34,444 bases of DNA from Candidatus Hermodarchaeota archaeon. Lineage in GTDB: Archaea > Asgardarchaeota > Hermodarchaeia > Hermodarchaeales > Hermodarchaeaceae. The DNA lies in assembly GCA_016840135.1 (NCBI GenBank), contig JAEOSX010000144.1:1-34444 (forward strand), given 5' to 3'. Both the position numbers and the translations under genes were made by a program. Position 1 is the stretch's first letter. Every line of letters begins with the position of its first letter. Shown here piece after piece: positions 146-19,490 of this stretch. Under the pieces are notes generated by a model, which saw only the letters and a program-made list of their open reading frames with translations, was not told where the DNA came from and ran no database searches.

Positions 146-916
146 TTACTTACCTAGCTTCTGAAGAGCCTTCTCGATTTGGTAGAGACGACGCTTATAT
201 CGCTTATAGAGTTTGGTGTACTCAGTAGCAGTGATTTCAGCGTTTTCGAACTTCTCCTCTAAGTTTTGCAGCAAATCCTCTATTGCTAGTCTTTCACTTT
301 CCAGTTCGAGTTTTTGACGTTCCAGCGGATCACTTGGTAGGATTAGTGCGTCGAGTTCTTCCTCTCCTGATGTCTCACTCGCTGGAATTCGATGGGTATC
401 TCTCTGAGCAGACATCCGAGCAATCTGCTCATCGCGCTCTTGAATCTTCCTAGTGAGCTGGGTAACTTCTCGTTCCAATCCTTGGTATCGTCGCTGCAGG
501 AGCTCCTCACTCTCTGGCATCTCAACTTTGGGAGGCTCTTGGCTTTCATCTACTTTGGGAGGTTCTCGCGCGAAGAGTCCCTTGATACTATTAACAACTT
601 GGTAAATATGGTAGTGAGGTTGCCATTGAGTTACGATTCGTAGATGAATAGCACCAGACTCACTATCTACCCGAGGATGTTTCGTTGGCGTCAACATGCG
701 AGCAACTGGCGGCTGAGCCGGAAAGTTAGGCGGTACGATTATTTCAACGAGGAACTCCTTTCTACCTCGTGGACCACCCTTGATTTTTCCGCGCCAACGG
801 CGTAAATTATTCCCGACTGGAGTGAATGTTGGGGCCCGACGGAACATCAACTGGGCTTCGCGAGCAATCGCCATTTCAGTTTTCCTTCGCACTGCTTGAG
901 CCATTGGAATCACCAT
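146..916 (-). CDS. Vps23/TSG101-like ESCRT-I subunit: UEV (E2-like, no catalytic Cys) + coiled coil + C-terminal steadiness-box-like domain
   Basis: UBC-fold signature 'FLVEIIVPPNFPAQPPVARM..KHPRVDSESGAIHLRIVTQWQPHYHIYQVVNSIKGLF' with His at the E2 Cys position. The C-terminus 'AIEDLLQNLEEKFENAEITATEYTKLYKRYKRRLYQIEKAL' resembles the Vps23 steadiness box. Confidence 0.85.
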   Translation of the reverse strand: MVIPMAQAVRRKTEMAIAREAQLMFRRAPTFTPVGNNLRRWRGKIKGGPRGRKEFLVEIIVPPNFPAQPPVARMLTPTKHPRVDSESGAIHLRIVTQWQPHYHIYQVVNSIKGLFAREPPKVDESQEPPKVEMPESEELLQRRYQGLEREVTQLTRKIQERDEQIARMSAQRDTHRIPASETSGEEELDALILPSDPLERQKLELESERLAIEDLLQNLEEKFENAEITATEYTKLYKRYKRRLYQIEKALQKLGK

Positions 917-986: not shown

Positions 987-1514
987 TTAGGTGCTCCTGG
1001 AACGCCTTCTTGAAGTGGGCTTTGGAGAGGAGGATGTAGAGGTGGCTTGCCGAACCGTGAGGAGTATACTGCTTTTCAGTTCACGGAGAAATTCGTCAAG
1101 GCGTCGTTCAAAAAGTGTTAATGTTTGTTCCAAACGCTTCGCAGTTTTTGTCAAGGTAGGAGTGATTTCCTGCTTCAGCGCCTTTAAGGATGCAGCTGTT
1201 GTGTCGCCGGCAGGTGCTGTCTTTTGTTTTCGAAGGTTCTTTTCTAGCGAGTCCATACGTTCCACAAGGATGCCAAGTCTTTCCACTGACGACTCAGATG
1301 CTATTGTGTCATCTGCAACTAGCTTCTGAAGTGTTTTTACCTCTCGTAGAAGCGCGCGGATATTTGCCTCCATTTTCAGATTCATCCGATTAAAATCTGC
1401 GTCCAGTACATTGAGCGCTTTGACAATACGCCTCAGAGATTCAACAGTAGGCACTAGCCCCTTGGGTGTTTTAATTGCTTCAATCTCAATTTTAAACTTT
1501 GGTGCCTCTGACAA
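987..1514 (-). CDS. Coiled-coil protein with basic Ser/Arg-rich C-terminal tail
   Basis: Long ORF with heptad-like helices and tail SSPKPTSRRRSRST; TTG start with GGAG about 11 nt upstream. Confidence 0.65.
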   Translation of the reverse strand: MSEAPKFKIEIEAIKTPKGLVPTVESLRRIVKALNVLDADFNRMNLKMEANIRALLREVKTLQKLVADDTIASESSVERLGILVERMDSLEKNLRKQKTAPAGDTTAASLKALKQEITPTLTKTAKRLEQTLTLFERRLDEFLRELKSSILLTVRQATSTSSSPKPTSRRRSRST

Positions 1515-1678
1515 AGCAAGATTCGCTCCTGAAGCGCATGTTCAAGGTAACTCGCCCCATCCTTAAAAGCTTTGATTAATCGCTCCACAGATTTCCACAA
1601 TTCATCTATTCTATTTGCATAGGTTTTTATGAATGCGCTTAGTAGAGGAGGCAAGCGGAAACGACAAGGAATGCTACA

Positions 1679-1924
1679 ATGACTGAGGATAGATTCGTAA
1701 TCACGCGTGTCAAAGAAATTGGAACGTGGGATTGGACCACTCCTCAGCAACAATGTAGCGTTTGTGGACTCCCAATCCGCGAAGGCCAGCAGAAGGTCTT
1801 CTGCCCGAAATGCGGAAACCCTGCTCATTACGCGCACCTCGCAGAATGGATCAAGGTGAAAGGCGTATGCCCGATTTGTCGTTCTCGCATCCCACTAAGA
1901 AAATTGAAACCTGTCAGAAAATAG
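1679..1924 (+). CDS. Small RING-like zinc-finger protein (candidate E3)
   Basis: C-x2-C-x12-C-x2-C-x4-H-x2-H-x11-C-x2-C with 'HLAEWIKVKGVCPICR', typical of RING C-termini; directly upstream of the Ub-like gene. Confidence 0.8.
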   Translation: MTEDRFVITRVKEIGTWDWTTPQQQCSVCGLPIREGQQKVFCPKCGNPAHYAHLAEWIKVKGVCPICRSRIPLRKLKPVRK

Positions 1925-1928
1925 GCTG

Positions 1929-2177
1929 GTGAATAAAAAAATGCGTATTGAAATCCGACCTGCAATCGGTGGTGGCGATTCAGTCTTCCTAGAGGTTGAG
2001 CCAAACACGACAATTGGCGAAATCCGACGGAAGGTTGCTCAGATGCGACGCATCCCCCCGAACATCGTCGTCCTTAGCTATCGTGGCCATCAGATGAACG
2101 ATGAGCAAACAATCAAAGGCGAAGGCATTACACACTCAGACGTTTTGTACCTCATCACTCGAACAGAAGGAGGCTGA
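1929..2177 (+). CDS. Ubiquitin-like modifier ending in Gly-Gly
   Basis: Aligns with ubiquitin: 'FLEVEPNTTIGEIRRKVAQMRRIPPN...YRGHQMNDEQTI...ITHSDVLYLITRTEGG'. GTG at 1929; the ATG at 1941 (preceded by GGTGA) gives a 78-aa protein and is the likelier start. Confidence 0.92.
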   Translation: MNKKMRIEIRPAIGGGDSVFLEVEPNTTIGEIRRKVAQMRRIPPNIVVLSYRGHQMNDEQTIKGEGITHSDVLYLITRTEGG

Positions 2178-2194
2178 GAATCTATCGGAATGGT

Positions 2195-2220
2195 GCGCCC
2201 CTGGGCGCGTCTCCCTCCTT
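2195..2220 (+). terminator. GC hairpin followed by a pyrimidine/T-rich run downstream of the Ub-like gene
   Basis: GCGCCC-CT-GGGCGC at 2195-2208 followed by GTCTCCCTCCTTTTATT, just after the Ub stop. Confidence 0.45.
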
Positions 2221-2364
2221 TTATTATGGAACAATAGCCGAGAGGTTATGCTAAATAAACCAAAGATGATGGTAATCTAGATATAACCGAAAAAATATTC
2301 AAGGCAAATGCCTACTCTTTTATTCTGAACCAGGGAACGTTTTTCCCACCGAGGCGTATCACAT

Positions 2365-2826
2365 ATGCTGTCAGAAGAGGATTTTTGGGCAAGACTTGCC
2401 CTAGAAGCAAAGAGCATGGAAACTGAGGAGCCCTCATTCCAGCCAATCAATGGTGATCTCAGACGTTGGCAAGGCTTCATCCTTGGTACTGGTATTTATG
2501 ACGGCGGAGTCTTTGTTATTCAGATTATTGTACCTAGAGCGTTCCCATACGAGCCGCCGAAAGTTCGATTCGTCACGAAAATCTGGCATCCAAACATTCA
2601 TAGAGAGAGAGTATGTGTTGGGATTATTGGAAAGGATTGGCTGCCTAGTACTTCGCTAACAGGTCTTGTAGAGACCTTACGTAATCTTCTGAACTTCCCC
2701 AATCCCGATGACCCACTAAATCAGAGTGCTGCACGCCAAGTCAAACAGAATCCGTCAAAGTTCGAACAAACTGTCCGAGAGTGGATACGCCGCCACGCTG
2801 GATGGGATCAAATCCAGAGGTCTTAA
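2365..2826 (+). CDS. Ubiquitin-conjugating enzyme E2
   Basis: UBC signature 'PYEPPKVRFVTKIWHPNIHRERVCVGIIGKDWLPSTSLTGLVETLRNLLNFPNPDDPLN' with HPN motif and catalytic Cys. Confidence 0.93.
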   Translation: MLSEEDFWARLALEAKSMETEEPSFQPINGDLRRWQGFILGTGIYDGGVFVIQIIVPRAFPYEPPKVRFVTKIWHPNIHRERVCVGIIGKDWLPSTSLTGLVETLRNLLNFPNPDDPLNQSAARQVKQNPSKFEQTVREWIRRHAGWDQIQRS

Positions 2827-2828
2827 CT

Positions 2829-3863
2829 GTGGCAGACCAAGCAAAACCAGAGGAAAAGCGCCCTCCAATCTATCACACCTTCGATCGCTATGCCCGGCAG
2901 CTTCTAATGGATGGCTGGGACCAGGAAAAACTTGCACGTTCCTCTGTGCTAGTAGCTGGAGTGGGTGCACTAGGAACCATAACTGCACTTGATCTAGTTC
3001 TTACTGGTATCGGTAAGGTAGTTGTTGTAGATTTTGACACTATTGAAATGTCTAATCTAAGCCGACAATTTCTTTATACAGACCAGGATATCGGAGAGCC
3101 CAAGGCTGTTGTGGCAGGTCAAAGACTCCGTGCGGCAAATCCTGATGTCCAGGTCTTGTCACTAAACCGCTCCATTCAGCAGGTCCCTAACACTGTTTGG
3201 GACGAAATAGATCTCATAGTAGATGGTCTTGACAACTTCGAGGCACGCCGCTGGCTCAACTCCCTCTGTGTACAAAAAAAGAAGCCATTAATACATGGTG
3301 GCATGTTCGGTTGGTGGGGCAACGTTCAACGAGTTATTCCATTCCAGACTCCCTGCTTAGAATGCCAGCCTCTTATTCCTCAAGAAAGATTACAAAAGGC
3401 CTGCACCCCACCAGGGCAACGTCGTAAGACGGAGGAGGAACCACCACCCAAGTTTCCTGCATTATTAAGCGTCGCCACAGTCATCGCTGGCATCCAGTTC
3501 CAAGAGGCGCTAAAGCATTTGTTAGGTATTGGTAAAGCCCTTGATAACTTCCTTTTCTATGATGGACTATACCAGCGCTTTACTACTCTCAAGCTAGCCA
3601 TGAACCCTAATTGTTTTCTTTGCAGCGACCGGTTCCGGATAAAGGGCGAGATATTCACAATAGGTCGAGGAGAATCTATCACCGAGTTGAAGAACCGGCT
3701 CATAATGACCTTCGGACTTCTAGATCCCAAGATAATGTTCCGGGGGCGATTATTATCCGATGATAAAATTCTCGGGCGAATGCGCGTGAAGAAGAAGGAG
3801 CCTATATTCGTCAATGACGACAGCCTTGCCCAACCTCTGAAGCTTCTTATTGTCATTAAATGA
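2829..3863 (+). CDS. E1-like ubiquitin-activating enzyme (ThiF/MoeB/UBA family) with C-terminal ubiquitin-fold-like domain
   Basis: 'VLVAGVGALGT..DLVLTGIGKVVVVDFDTIEMSNLSRQFL', 'DGLDNFEARRWLNSLC', CxxC...CxxC pair, candidate catalytic Cys in 'KACTPPGQ'. The listed ORF starts at GTG 2781 inside E2; GTG 2829 with AGAGGT upstream is the likelier start. Confidence 0.92.
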   Translation: MADQAKPEEKRPPIYHTFDRYARQLLMDGWDQEKLARSSVLVAGVGALGTITALDLVLTGIGKVVVVDFDTIEMSNLSRQFLYTDQDIGEPKAVVAGQRLRAANPDVQVLSLNRSIQQVPNTVWDEIDLIVDGLDNFEARRWLNSLCVQKKKPLIHGGMFGWWGNVQRVIPFQTPCLECQPLIPQERLQKACTPPGQRRKTEEEPPPKFPALLSVATVIAGIQFQEALKHLLGIGKALDNFLFYDGLYQRFTTLKLAMNPNCFLCSDRFRIKGEIFTIGRGESITELKNRLIMTFGLLDPKIMFRGRLLSDDKILGRMRVKKKEPIFVNDDSLAQPLKLLIVIK

Positions 3864-4614
3864 TTGGGATTGTAAGCCTAGCAAACAATCCTAGAATCAC
3901 TACAATTACTGTTACTGTAAAGGTTGCCATAAACGCTACACTAGTTGACATATGATAGCGCTCACGGATTCCCAATGCTAGAAGAAAAGCCCCCCACAGT
4001 GATGCTACAGCTGTGAGAATATAGACAACAAGCCAGACGGACTGGTAAGGAAAGACCAAGAACATTAATTCAGTAACTGCAACTGAAGGTAAGAGCAATA
4101 CAAGAACTACTAGCGATAGTAGGTTAGCTAGGAGTAGAGGCAAAGAAGAGTATTGGCCAAGAATAAAGGTATCCCAGAAACCTCCTTTTCTTCCTGAAAG
4201 GCGGATAATTATGTGGATTATCCCATATAAGAAGAAATTGTAAATGGTGAAGAAAATGAAGAAGATTAGAAAGACCACCAGAAAGCCAAGAAAAAGACTA
4301 GCTGTGCCGGTGGTTTTCAAGATTATCAGGATGTAGAATAAGGAAATGGAAAGGATATTTCCAAGGAAGATTAGGAACGGCCCTGCCCTGTCAGGTTCCC
4401 GGGCGATGTCCCAAAAAGCAATACTAGGAACTGTTAGCGTTGACCAAAGCCGTTGACGGAGAGAGAGGCGTCCCTCCCAGCGACGCTCCGGTCGCCTCAT
4501 AAAAGGAAGGACCCTCTCAAAGCGATCATATCTAAATCGGAAGCCGCAGAACCCACAAGTTGAATCCTCTTGGTGGATTCTGTGGTGACATTGGGGACAG
4601 CGAAGAGCAGACAT
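3856..4614 (-). CDS. Yip1-like multi-pass membrane protein with N-terminal zinc ribbon
   Basis: N-terminal CPQC...CGFCG, then 'PSIAFWDIAREPDRAGPFLIFLGNI' and about five hydrophobic helices, as in the Yip1 domain family. Confidence 0.7.
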   Translation of the reverse strand: MSALRCPQCHHRIHQEDSTCGFCGFRFRYDRFERVLPFMRRPERRWEGRLSLRQRLWSTLTVPSIAFWDIAREPDRAGPFLIFLGNILSISLFYILIILKTTGTASLFLGFLVVFLIFFIFFTIYNFFLYGIIHIIIRLSGRKGGFWDTFILGQYSSLPLLLANLLSLVVLVLLLPSVAVTELMFLVFPYQSVWLVVYILTAVASLWGAFLLALGIRERYHMSTSVAFMATFTVTVIVVILGLFARLTIPII

Positions 4615-16919: not shown

Positions 16920-17465
16920 ATGTCCCAGTCACAACCGCAAGATATCGCCGAGGTCTTTCGGCAACTTATGGATGTCCTGAAGAAAACTCTAGCCAAGATG
17001 ACAGAGCTAGAAGAGAAGCTCACAGCCCAGATCGCTAATCTCACCAAACAGGTCAAGAGTCTTAGCCAGAGTAAATCTCAGTCAAGCCCGCAAGCGTTAA
17101 AGGAAATTACCCAACGCCTGTCCCGCGCTATAACTCAAATCGATCAGAGGGTATCAATGTTTACAATAACAGAGATGCTGGCTCAGCTAGAGCGTAGCAC
17201 CGCTCCTGCACCTGTCGCGGCGATTGGTTCGCCTTCAAGGGTCGTTGTTGCACCAAGACGCTTATCCTCAACTGGATCTTCTGCAGCACGTACAAAAAGA
17301 GCGAAAGCAGGGACCTCTACAAGCGAAAAGCCCGAGGAGGCGACTGGCACCGAAGAGGCGCCCAGTGAGCCAGAAGTCGTCTCGGGAGATCAAGTTGGAG
17401 GGGACTGGCGAGAAAAAATGAAGAGAAAATATGGTCTGAAGGAAGAGCCAGGAAGCCTTCTATGA
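16920..17465 (+). CDS. Coiled-coil protein with low-complexity basic/acidic tail
   Basis: 'DVLKKTLAKMTELEEKLTAQIANLTKQVKSL' heptads; ATG at 16920 preferred over TTG at 16911. Confidence 0.65.
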   Translation: MSQSQPQDIAEVFRQLMDVLKKTLAKMTELEEKLTAQIANLTKQVKSLSQSKSQSSPQALKEITQRLSRAITQIDQRVSMFTITEMLAQLERSTAPAPVAAIGSPSRVVVAPRRLSSTGSSAARTKRAKAGTSTSEKPEEATGTEEAPSEPEVVSGDQVGGDWREKMKRKYGLKEEPGSLL

Positions 17466-17948
17466 GCTTTCTTCCTTTACCGCTTTCTCTTTCGGTCGGG
17501 TCATTTCCAGCTTCATTTCCAAGATTCTTCTGATGAAGCCCTCCAAGCGAAGGCAATAAAGGGCCTGTTGAGTGGAATGAAGTGTTTTAGCTAGAAGAGA
17601 TAGAACTCGCTGATCCACACTTGCAGAGCGAGTTTCATTAAGTGTTTCAAACTCCTGAGTGATTGTTTCAGCTAGCCGAGAGAGATGGGTTACACTACTC
17701 CGACGTTGTTTTTGAATATTAAGAAGTATTTCCTCGAATTTTGGCACTACACTTGCAAGGGCTGACTTGTTCATTTCGTCAATCTTCTCAATCGTTACTT
17801 TCAATAGGGATAACTCGTCCGTTAAAGCAGAAATACGGTTGAAAAGATTGGTAAAGGCTTGAGTGAGAAAGGGAATTAATGTGGCATCCTCAGGTTGCTG
17901 AGAGGGTGAGGGTTTACCAGGTTTTGGTTTCTCCGTCATTATTGACAC
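17460..17948 (-). CDS. Coiled-coil/helical protein
   Basis: 162-aa helical ORF directly downstream of 17954-18346 on the same strand. Confidence 0.65.
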   Translation of the reverse strand: MSIMTEKPKPGKPSPSQQPEDATLIPFLTQAFTNLFNRISALTDELSLLKVTIEKIDEMNKSALASVVPKFEEILLNIQKQRRSSVTHLSRLAETITQEFETLNETRSASVDQRVLSLLAKTLHSTQQALYCLRLEGFIRRILEMKLEMTRPKEKAVKEESS

Positions 17949-17953
17949 CCTAC

Positions 17954-18346
17954 CTACTCTGAATCATTGCCCTGTTTTGCTTCTAGCTGCTGAACAGCCT
18001 CAAGCACCTTATCTAGGTCGATTTTGTTTACTACTTCATCGACGATATCTGATATAGTGTGGACCGCATCTTCTAAATCACTCAATTGCGTTATCCTTTT
18101 CACTCTATCCAACTCAGCCGTAATCTGAGACTCTAGGAGATGGCGTTGTTCTTCGAAGGTGGAAACCTCCTGCTGAAGCAGCTGTATCAACGTTTCCGAT
18201 TGTTCAAGAACTTTTTTCAAACGGTTGGCAGACTCTTCGGCTAGTTTCTCCATAGCCACACGAAGAGCTTTCATTTCCTCAGATAATGAATCGAGGCGTT
18301 GCCCAATTTTTTCAACGATATTTTTTACACTTGTAGCTACTGACAC
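17954..18346 (-). CDS. Coiled-coil protein
   Basis: 'IVEKIGQRLDSLSEEMKALRVAMEKLAEESANRLKKVLEQSETLIQLLQQEV' heptads; 5-nt gap to the next ORF. Confidence 0.65.
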   Translation of the reverse strand: MSVATSVKNIVEKIGQRLDSLSEEMKALRVAMEKLAEESANRLKKVLEQSETLIQLLQQEVSTFEEQRHLLESQITAELDRVKRITQLSDLEDAVHTISDIVDEVVNKIDLDKVLEAVQQLEAKQGNDSE

Positions 18347-18455: not shown

Positions 18456-19490
18456 TTATTGAGTCCTCATTCGGGCTAGATTCACTGCACTAGTCCAAAC
18501 ACGTTCAAATGGGTTATCAAGGACATGGACATTCATTGGGAGATTTGGAAACTTCCCTCTAAGTTCAGCGTGAAAACGTTCTCCAAGACCAGGGAAAATC
18601 GAGCCCCCTCCTGTTAAAATTACGTTCTGAGCTAGTTCGGGTTTCATTGACACATCTACTCGCTGCAGCACTTCAGCTACCAAGTCAGTGAGCCCCTTAT
18701 CGCTGATGTCGATTAGAGCTGGGTCAAATAAGATTTCAGGTGCTTGCCAAACTGACTCACCCAATGGGAAGTCAATCTCCCCCTGCTGGAATCGAACCTC
18801 GCTCATTATTTTCTCCTTTTCTGCGGGTTTGAAAGCGACATGACACAGGTTTCTCTTGATGAATTCGATGGCATCCAAGTTCTTTGAAAGGCTTTCGTAA
18901 GACATCGCTTCCGATTTTGGTACGGTTTCAGCCATTAAGAAAAGCAGGTGGGAGAGGGCTGCGGATACGAAGAAGGCGCCGGTTGCGGAGGTCATAACCT
19001 TATCATGGAGCAGAAAGCCTTGAAAGATTGGCGCAACGATTGAAACCGAGTAGCCAATGTCAACTACGATTCCTGTAGCCCGGTCGAGATCCATTAAGGT
19101 TGTTACTTGCTGTAGCGAAGCTGTCACATTACGAAACTTCAAAATTTCCTCAAGGTCCTCGCAGATACCATCTACCTTCTCAACGTCGCTTGATGCGAAC
19201 ACCTGTAGTTCTAAATCTGTTTTTCCAAAATGAGAAGCTTTCATCCCAATTTCATCGAAGATAATTTCAAGGAGAGGAGCGACTCTTTTACAATCAGTTA
19301 TTGTACCATTCTCTAGGGGGAAAACCCAACCCCTCCTACCAGAGTCGAAGGCGACTAAAGATGATGGGTCTGATTCTTCATCTGGTGCAGCGTAACAGGC
19401 TGGAAGAACTTTCGGCGAAGAATGATTTACATAACCAAACTTCAGATAGCCACTACCCAAATCAATGATTAACGTCGGTGGTATACCCAT
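18456..19490 (-). CDS. Actin-family protein (divergent actin-related protein)
   Basis: Phosphate-1 'IIDLGSGYLKFGYVN', phosphate-2 'GIVVDIGYSVSIVAPIFQGFLL', adenosine motif 'NVILTGGGSIFPGLGERFHAEL'; 344 aa. Confidence 0.85.
   Translation of the reverse strand: MGIPPTLIIDLGSGYLKFGYVNHSSPKVLPACYAAPDEESDPSSLVAFDSGRRGWVFPLENGTITDCKRVAPLLEIIFDEIGMKASHFGKTDLELQVFASSDVEKVDGICEDLEEILKFRNVTASLQQVTTLMDLDRATGIVVDIGYSVSIVAPIFQGFLLHDKVMTSATGAFFVSAALSHLLFLMAETVPKSEAMSYESLSKNLDAIEFIKRNLCHVAFKPAEKEKIMSEVRFQQGEIDFPLGESVWQAPEILFDPALIDISDKGLTDLVAEVLQRVDVSMKPELAQNVILTGGGSIFPGLGERFHAELRGKFPNLPMNVHVLDNPFERVWTSAVNLARMRTQ

Follow-up and report, generated by a model that had tools for sequence, protein, structure and literature searches.

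A Hermodarchaeial ubiquitylation locus divergent from an ESCRT-I gene, and a putative coiled-coil partner of its RING ligase

The ubiquitylation cascade of Caldiarchaeum has been reconstituted (James et al. 2017, PMC5654768), and Ub-UEV binding and the ESCRT machinery have been studied in Asgard archaea (Hatano et al. 2022, PMC9192718). According to a 2024 survey, of the diverse ESCRT protein families Hermodarchaeia "have none", it being ambiguous there whether core or accessory families were meant (PMC11188069). The DNA analysed here (the window, 34,444 nucleotides) is a whole contig of a 1.8 Mb Hermodarchaeial draft genome that is 81% complete. There is good support for its encoding a eukaryote-type E1-E2-RING-ubiquitin cascade, and the locus very probably supplies the whole ubiquitylation half of a Ub-ESCRT system in this Hermodarchaeon, as a left-truncated arm of the known Asgard cluster. 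The locus is of an already known kind and its gene order is not new; it brings the Ub-ESCRT cluster to Hermodarchaeia at gene-level detail. Its features are the following:

146..916, minus strand: ESCRT-I Vps23-like protein with a UBC/UEV domain, a coiled coil and a Vps23 core (PF00179, 2.7e-15; PF09454, 1.2e-7)
987..1514, minus strand: cc1, coiled-coil protein with a TTG start and the N-terminal motif IEIEAIKTPKGLVPTV (dN/dS 0.073)
1515..1678, no strand: divergent intergenic region of 164 bp, the gap between the starts of cc1 and RING
1679..1924, plus strand: small RING-finger E3, 81 aa (PF14446, 8e-7; PF13639, 4e-6; zinc ligands; fold model)
1941..2177, plus strand: ubiquitin, 78 aa, ending in GG without a pro-peptide (PF00240, 9.1e-12)
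2365..2826, plus strand: E2 conjugating enzyme, 153 aa, with HPN at 75-77 and catalytic Cys84 (PF00179, 7.5e-33)
2829..3863, plus strand: E1, 344 aa, with an adenylation domain and a C-terminal ubiquitin-fold domain (PF00899, 7.5e-65)
3856..4614, minus strand: Yip1-domain membrane protein at the border of the cluster, with synteny in several Asgard classes (PF04893, 4.8e-15)

An earlier note, made from the sequence alone, had read the genes at 1679-3863 as RING, ubiquitin, E2 and E1, all on one strand, and this was confirmed (on the plus strand) by Pfam, by signature residues in each protein and by purifying selection. In the HMM searches all four proteins matched the corresponding families (RING PF14446/PF13639, ubiquitin PF00240, E2 PF00179, E1 PF00899), both RING scores being barely above the curated cut-off. 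The eight zinc ligands of the RING protein (C26, C29, C42, C45, H50, H53, C64 and C67) were all conserved among aligned relatives, and its predicted structure matched RING and U-box E3 folds. Its N-terminus carries an IGTWDW motif, which the alignment columns of its relatives give as GxW[DNSK][WP] with an invariant W17. For the E2, Ubc4/UBE2D relatives were found in the PDB (about 1e-27), and Cys84 aligned with the catalytic cysteine of Ubc4. In the E1, Cys192 within CTPPG was invariant among aligned relatives, as were the two CxxC pairs formed by the zinc cysteines C176/C179 and C262/C265. This protein most likely starts at GTG 2829, 3 bp past the E2 stop, rather than at 2781; it was 94% and 92% identical to the E1s of the closest named Candidatus Hermodarchaeota MAGs, and about 39-54% identical to those of other classes. 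Compared with a congener (L058), dN/dS was 0.091 for RING, 0.057 for ubiquitin, 0.018 for E2 and 0.026 for E1, which indicates purifying selection. A further ORF (1454-1837, minus strand) was rejected as spurious, with stops in both congeners compared.

The best single-copy PDB matches of the ubiquitin were entries for archaeal ubiquitin-like proteins (6fj7, 2mqj and 5zew). Its start would most likely be ATG 1941, not GTG 1929 where the ORF opens, because its relatives begin with MRIE. The GG was the exact end of ubiquitin in five of the five Hermodarchaeial sequences compared, whereas in Odin, Heimdall and Caldarchaeum it is followed by a tail. In the alignment, this ubiquitin lacked equivalents of K6, K11, K48 and K63, unlike most Asgard ubiquitins. 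With no counterpart of K48 or K63, it would be expected to act as mono-ubiquitin or through K29-type links. Position 44 was Ser in the genus of the window and Ala or Val in many Asgards, and it is therefore uncertain whether the UEV binds by way of the usual patch.

ThiF-family enzymes are common to ubiquitylation and sulfur transfer, and in the profile search of the PDB, which placed UBA1 first for the E1 (1e-53), ThiF and MoeB scored closely behind; the C-terminal region matched ubiquitin chains. It might thus be argued that the E1-like protein and the modifier work in a MoeB/Urm1-like manner, either in sulfur transfer or in a SAMP-type modification, with the E2 and RING incidental, a reading that we regard as highly improbable. 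The enzyme has the invariant cysteine and a ubiquitin-fold C-terminus and is co-directional with RING and with an E2 whose active site is intact, and the genome encodes a separate ThiF/MoeB-like protein (L002, contig C135), whose best PDB matches were ThiF, MoeB and Uba4. A closer affinity to MoeB/SAMP-type systems, named by the earlier note as what would count against a ubiquitin pathway, was not what the phylogeny gave: a branch with a support of 99/100 parted the archaeal ubiquitin E1s from MoeB, ThiF and Uba4, and the E1 of the window grouped with those of Asgards and Caldiarchaeum. Long branches confounded a tree of every ThiF type, and this support comes from the tree rebuilt without those branches. 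A placement of Hermodarchaeial E1s as the first branch nearest the MoeB group was not rejected by an AU test (p 0.10), which makes the deep order within the E1 clade uncertain.

The locus had also been described as a compact conjugation locus with a possibly new gene order, and neither point survived the synteny comparison. Rather than standing alone, the four genes are part of the Asgard Ub-ESCRT cluster, with a divergent UEV-Vps23 gene at 146-916, and the order RING>Ub>E2>E1, divergent from cc1 (and Vps23), is already found in Odinarchaeum and in Baldr-, Jord/Frey- and Njordarchaeia. Both UEV-Vps23 (146-916) and the coiled-coil gene (987-1514) were absent from the earlier note. The PF00179 and Vps23_core (PF09454) matches of the Vps23-like protein were above the cut-off and its dN/dS was 0.029; in the alignment its UEV domain was catalytically dead, with His at the position of the E2 catalytic Cys (IHL versus VCV of the E2). 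Judging from the gene layout, the 164-bp intergenic region presumably serves both the ESCRT-I arm and the ubiquitin arm as a bidirectional promoter.

Of the ESCRT part of this genome only Vps23 was seen, since the contig ends at base 1. In congeners G070 and G071, ESCRT-II, ESCRT-III and Vps4 lie in the same neighbourhood (L036/L035 and L058/L057). Beyond Vps23, the cluster continues there (L035/L057) with Vps28 (PF03997), a 98-aa gene and EAP30/Vps22 (PF04157), followed by Vps25 (PF05871), a Vps4 with AAA and Vps4_C domains, and two ESCRT-III genes of the Snf7 family. The conserved 98-aa gene in the Vps28-EAP30 interval (L035:13944-14237) has no Pfam family and is perhaps the separate Vps28 C-terminal domain of PMC11188069. 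Further along the window, an actin-family-like protein of 344 aa (18456-19490, minus strand), with small coiled-coil ORFs alongside (17460-18346), was recognised by eye only.

That no JAMM is encoded at the locus held for the window, where none was found, and not for the genome, in which JAMM proteins lie on other contigs. The genome-wide search that had been proposed found a membrane-anchored JAMM protein outside the window, and each of the eight Hermodarchaeia has one (8/8). In the best JAMM protein (contig C84, L004) the JAMM residues are intact (HTHPGMGAHFMSGTD), and by eye it has a C-terminal hydrophobic segment. Since this ubiquitin does not have to be trimmed, its maturation does not require a linked JAMM. 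Elsewhere in the genome (L003:1348-2836, G000:C176), a second ThiF E1-like gene overlaps a Prok-JAB JAMM gene, with helicase and transglutaminase-like genes adjoining, and this pair is possibly another modifier system.

Besides the UEV, the genome has one Ub-type E2, and 12 RING-profile matches were detected. About nine further RING proteins (L158-L168; contigs C52, C194, C38, C93, C75, C143, C158 and C11) included LRR-RING, membrane-RING, zinc-ribbon-RING and metalloprotease-like-RING types, their domains being assigned by eye. This layout, a single E1 and a single E2 alongside many RING ligases, is eukaryote-like. At least 24 RING-profile matches were found in congener G071.

The coiled-coil protein cc1, for which the Pfam search found no family, belongs to a conserved family with the N-terminal consensus IxIxxIxTPxGxVPT. 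Its AlphaFold2 model (mean pLDDT 78.5, pTM 0.33) has a hairpin at 13-22 over the motif and helices at 24-98 and 106-162, and Foldseek found no match to this model in the PDB with an E-value below 6. A chance coiled-coil similarity was rejected as the origin of the family: among the ORFs of the loci scanned, the TP motif was confined to cc1 proteins, and the new genomes found by the profile repeated the adjacency to RING. In phylum-wide searches (228 genomes each), cc1 lay 13-560 bp from RING in 43 of the 51 RING matches listed that include the N-terminal WDW region. The two genes are divergent in Hermodarchaeia and most other lineages, cc1 precedes RING in Hodarchaea (L106), and RING precedes cc1 in f11 Heimdall-type genomes, Pelearchaeum and Caldarchaeum SZUA-1515. 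A natural cc1-RING fusion was sought among the ORFs of the fetched loci and none was found.

From this genomic association, we consider it about as likely as not that cc1 contacts the RING ligase and serves it as a scaffold or partner. Much of the adjacency count is explained by shared ancestry, and cc1 is absent or separate from RING in some lineages (G002 and Jordarchaeum, the two genes being far apart in the latter), so that the link might reflect inherited gene order only, with an unrelated function of cc1. That the adjacency holds in three relative orientations argues against this, as does the recurrence of the TP motif, fused to an AAA ATPase, beside WDW-bearing proteins of a second ubiquitin system and of a UFC1-containing system, and we find this reading rather unlikely. 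Still less likely is that cc1 belongs to ESCRT-I as a subunit that partners Vps23, and not RING, in the stalk, in the manner of a divergent Vps37 or Mvb12. Asgards were reported to be without Vps37 (PMC9192718), cc1 is directly upstream of and co-directional with Vps23 in Hermod-, Baldr-, Odinarchaea and others, and its model is a long coiled coil. However, cc1 had no Pfam match to Vps37/Mod(r), and its association is with RING and not with Vps23, since cc1 has RING beside it and no adjacent Vps23 in Hodarchaea, f11 Heimdall-type genomes, Pelearchaeum and Caldarchaeum.

The evidence from other clusters bears on the RING-partner reading. In Jordarchaeia, a second, Caldiarchaeum-like ubiquitin cluster is present besides the Ub-ESCRT cluster (L118:1436-8809 and L119:7279-14793), with genes for JAMM, Ub, E1, E2 and an E2-like protein, for two RINGs, and for an AAA ATPase to which the TP domain is fused; this fusion and a RING that carries GKWKW occur in L118, L119 and L152. 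In Helarchaeia, a UFM1-like cluster (L150:2744-8459 and L151:1273-7094) encodes a UBA5-like E1, UFC1, a JAMM-like protein, a short Ubl whose last residue is G, and a TP-AAA fusion; the UFC1 of L150 (L151 is similar) has an N-terminal VGHWDW and a PF08694 match above the cut-off. In Njordarchaeia-type genomes, cc1 adjoins a UBA5-like E1, and no WDW protein was visible there. The simplest reading would be that the TP and WDW peptides dock and that cc1 scaffolds the E3 (the E2 in the case of UFC1), sometimes tying in an ATPase. Taken in full, this would make cc1 an undescribed, dedicated RING-ligase partner present from Caldarchaeum to most Asgard classes, with a TPxGxVPT hairpin that pairs with GxWDW, and with the pair reused in second ubiquitin and UFM1-like (UBA5/UFC1) clusters where the TP element is fused to an AAA ATPase; we hold the chances for and against it to be about equal.

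If so, cc1 would have been missing whenever the cascade was reconstituted in published work. A true RING partner would also be a pre-eukaryotic E3 subunit, and the AAA ATPase fusion would mean that tagging was coupled to machines for unfolding or extraction already before eukaryotes. In this role cc1 is apparently undescribed: no description was found in the open-access literature covered, and on this basis its novelty is provisional.

Gene identities, residues, synteny, selection and distribution are established for the locus; all biochemical steps of the Hermodarchaeial cascade we infer from homology, on the model of the cascade reconstituted for Caldiarchaeum (PMC5654768) and of the Asgard work on Ub-UEV binding and ESCRT (PMC9192718). 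The E1 would adenylate the ready-made, GG-ended ubiquitin and then load Cys192, and its C-terminal ubiquitin-fold domain would pass ubiquitin to the sole E2 (Cys84). Substrates would be chosen by the RING E3s, namely the small RING of this locus and the about nine other RING proteins of the genome, with cc1 perhaps acting as a scaffold or dimeriser that docks on RING via the paired TP and WDW peptides. The divergently transcribed UEV-Vps23 would recognise the ubiquitin tag, and tagged membrane cargo would go from Vps23 through Vps28 and Vps22/Vps25 to ESCRT-III/Vps4. Ubiquitin would probably be removed by the membrane-anchored JAMM protease encoded elsewhere in the genome.

Among described systems, the Asgard Ub-ESCRT cluster of Odinarchaeum LCB_4, Helarchaeia and Heimdallarchaeia (Hatano et al. 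2022, PMC9192718) likewise holds Ub, E1, E2, RING, UEV-Vps23, Vps28, Vps22, Vps25, Vps4 and two ESCRT-III genes as one neighbourhood, the likeness being drawn from the congeners for the part beyond Vps23. In G174, taken as Odinarchaeum LCB_4, the exact RING>Ub>E2>E1 block is divergent from cc1-Vps23 (L053), as it is here. The present locus differs in its Hermodarchaeial sequences, in a ubiquitin without a C-terminal extension and in a contig that stops after Vps23.

The operon of Caldiarchaeum subterraneum (James et al. 2017, PMC5654768; Fuchs et al. 2018, PMC6043591) shares with this locus an E1 with a C-terminal UBL, an E2, a small RING and ubiquitin, and in the Caldarchaeum isolate SZUA-1515 a cc1 relative directly follows RING. 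Caldiarchaeum has a pro-ubiquitin and an adjacent Rpn11/JAMM, whereas the Hermodarchaeon has a mature ubiquitin and an unlinked JAMM.

The MoeB/ThiF/Uba4 and SAMP systems have in common with the Hermodarchaeon the ThiF adenylation domain and CxxC zinc pairs; unlike them, the Hermodarchaeon has an E2, a RING, the conserved Cys192 and a UFD, and its E1 is placed elsewhere in the tree. Finally, the UFM1-like system of Helarchaeia (L150 and L151) resembles the present one in its AAA-fused TP-motif domain and its WDW-motif protein, but uses other E1 and E2 families (UBA5-like and UFC1) and lies outside the window.
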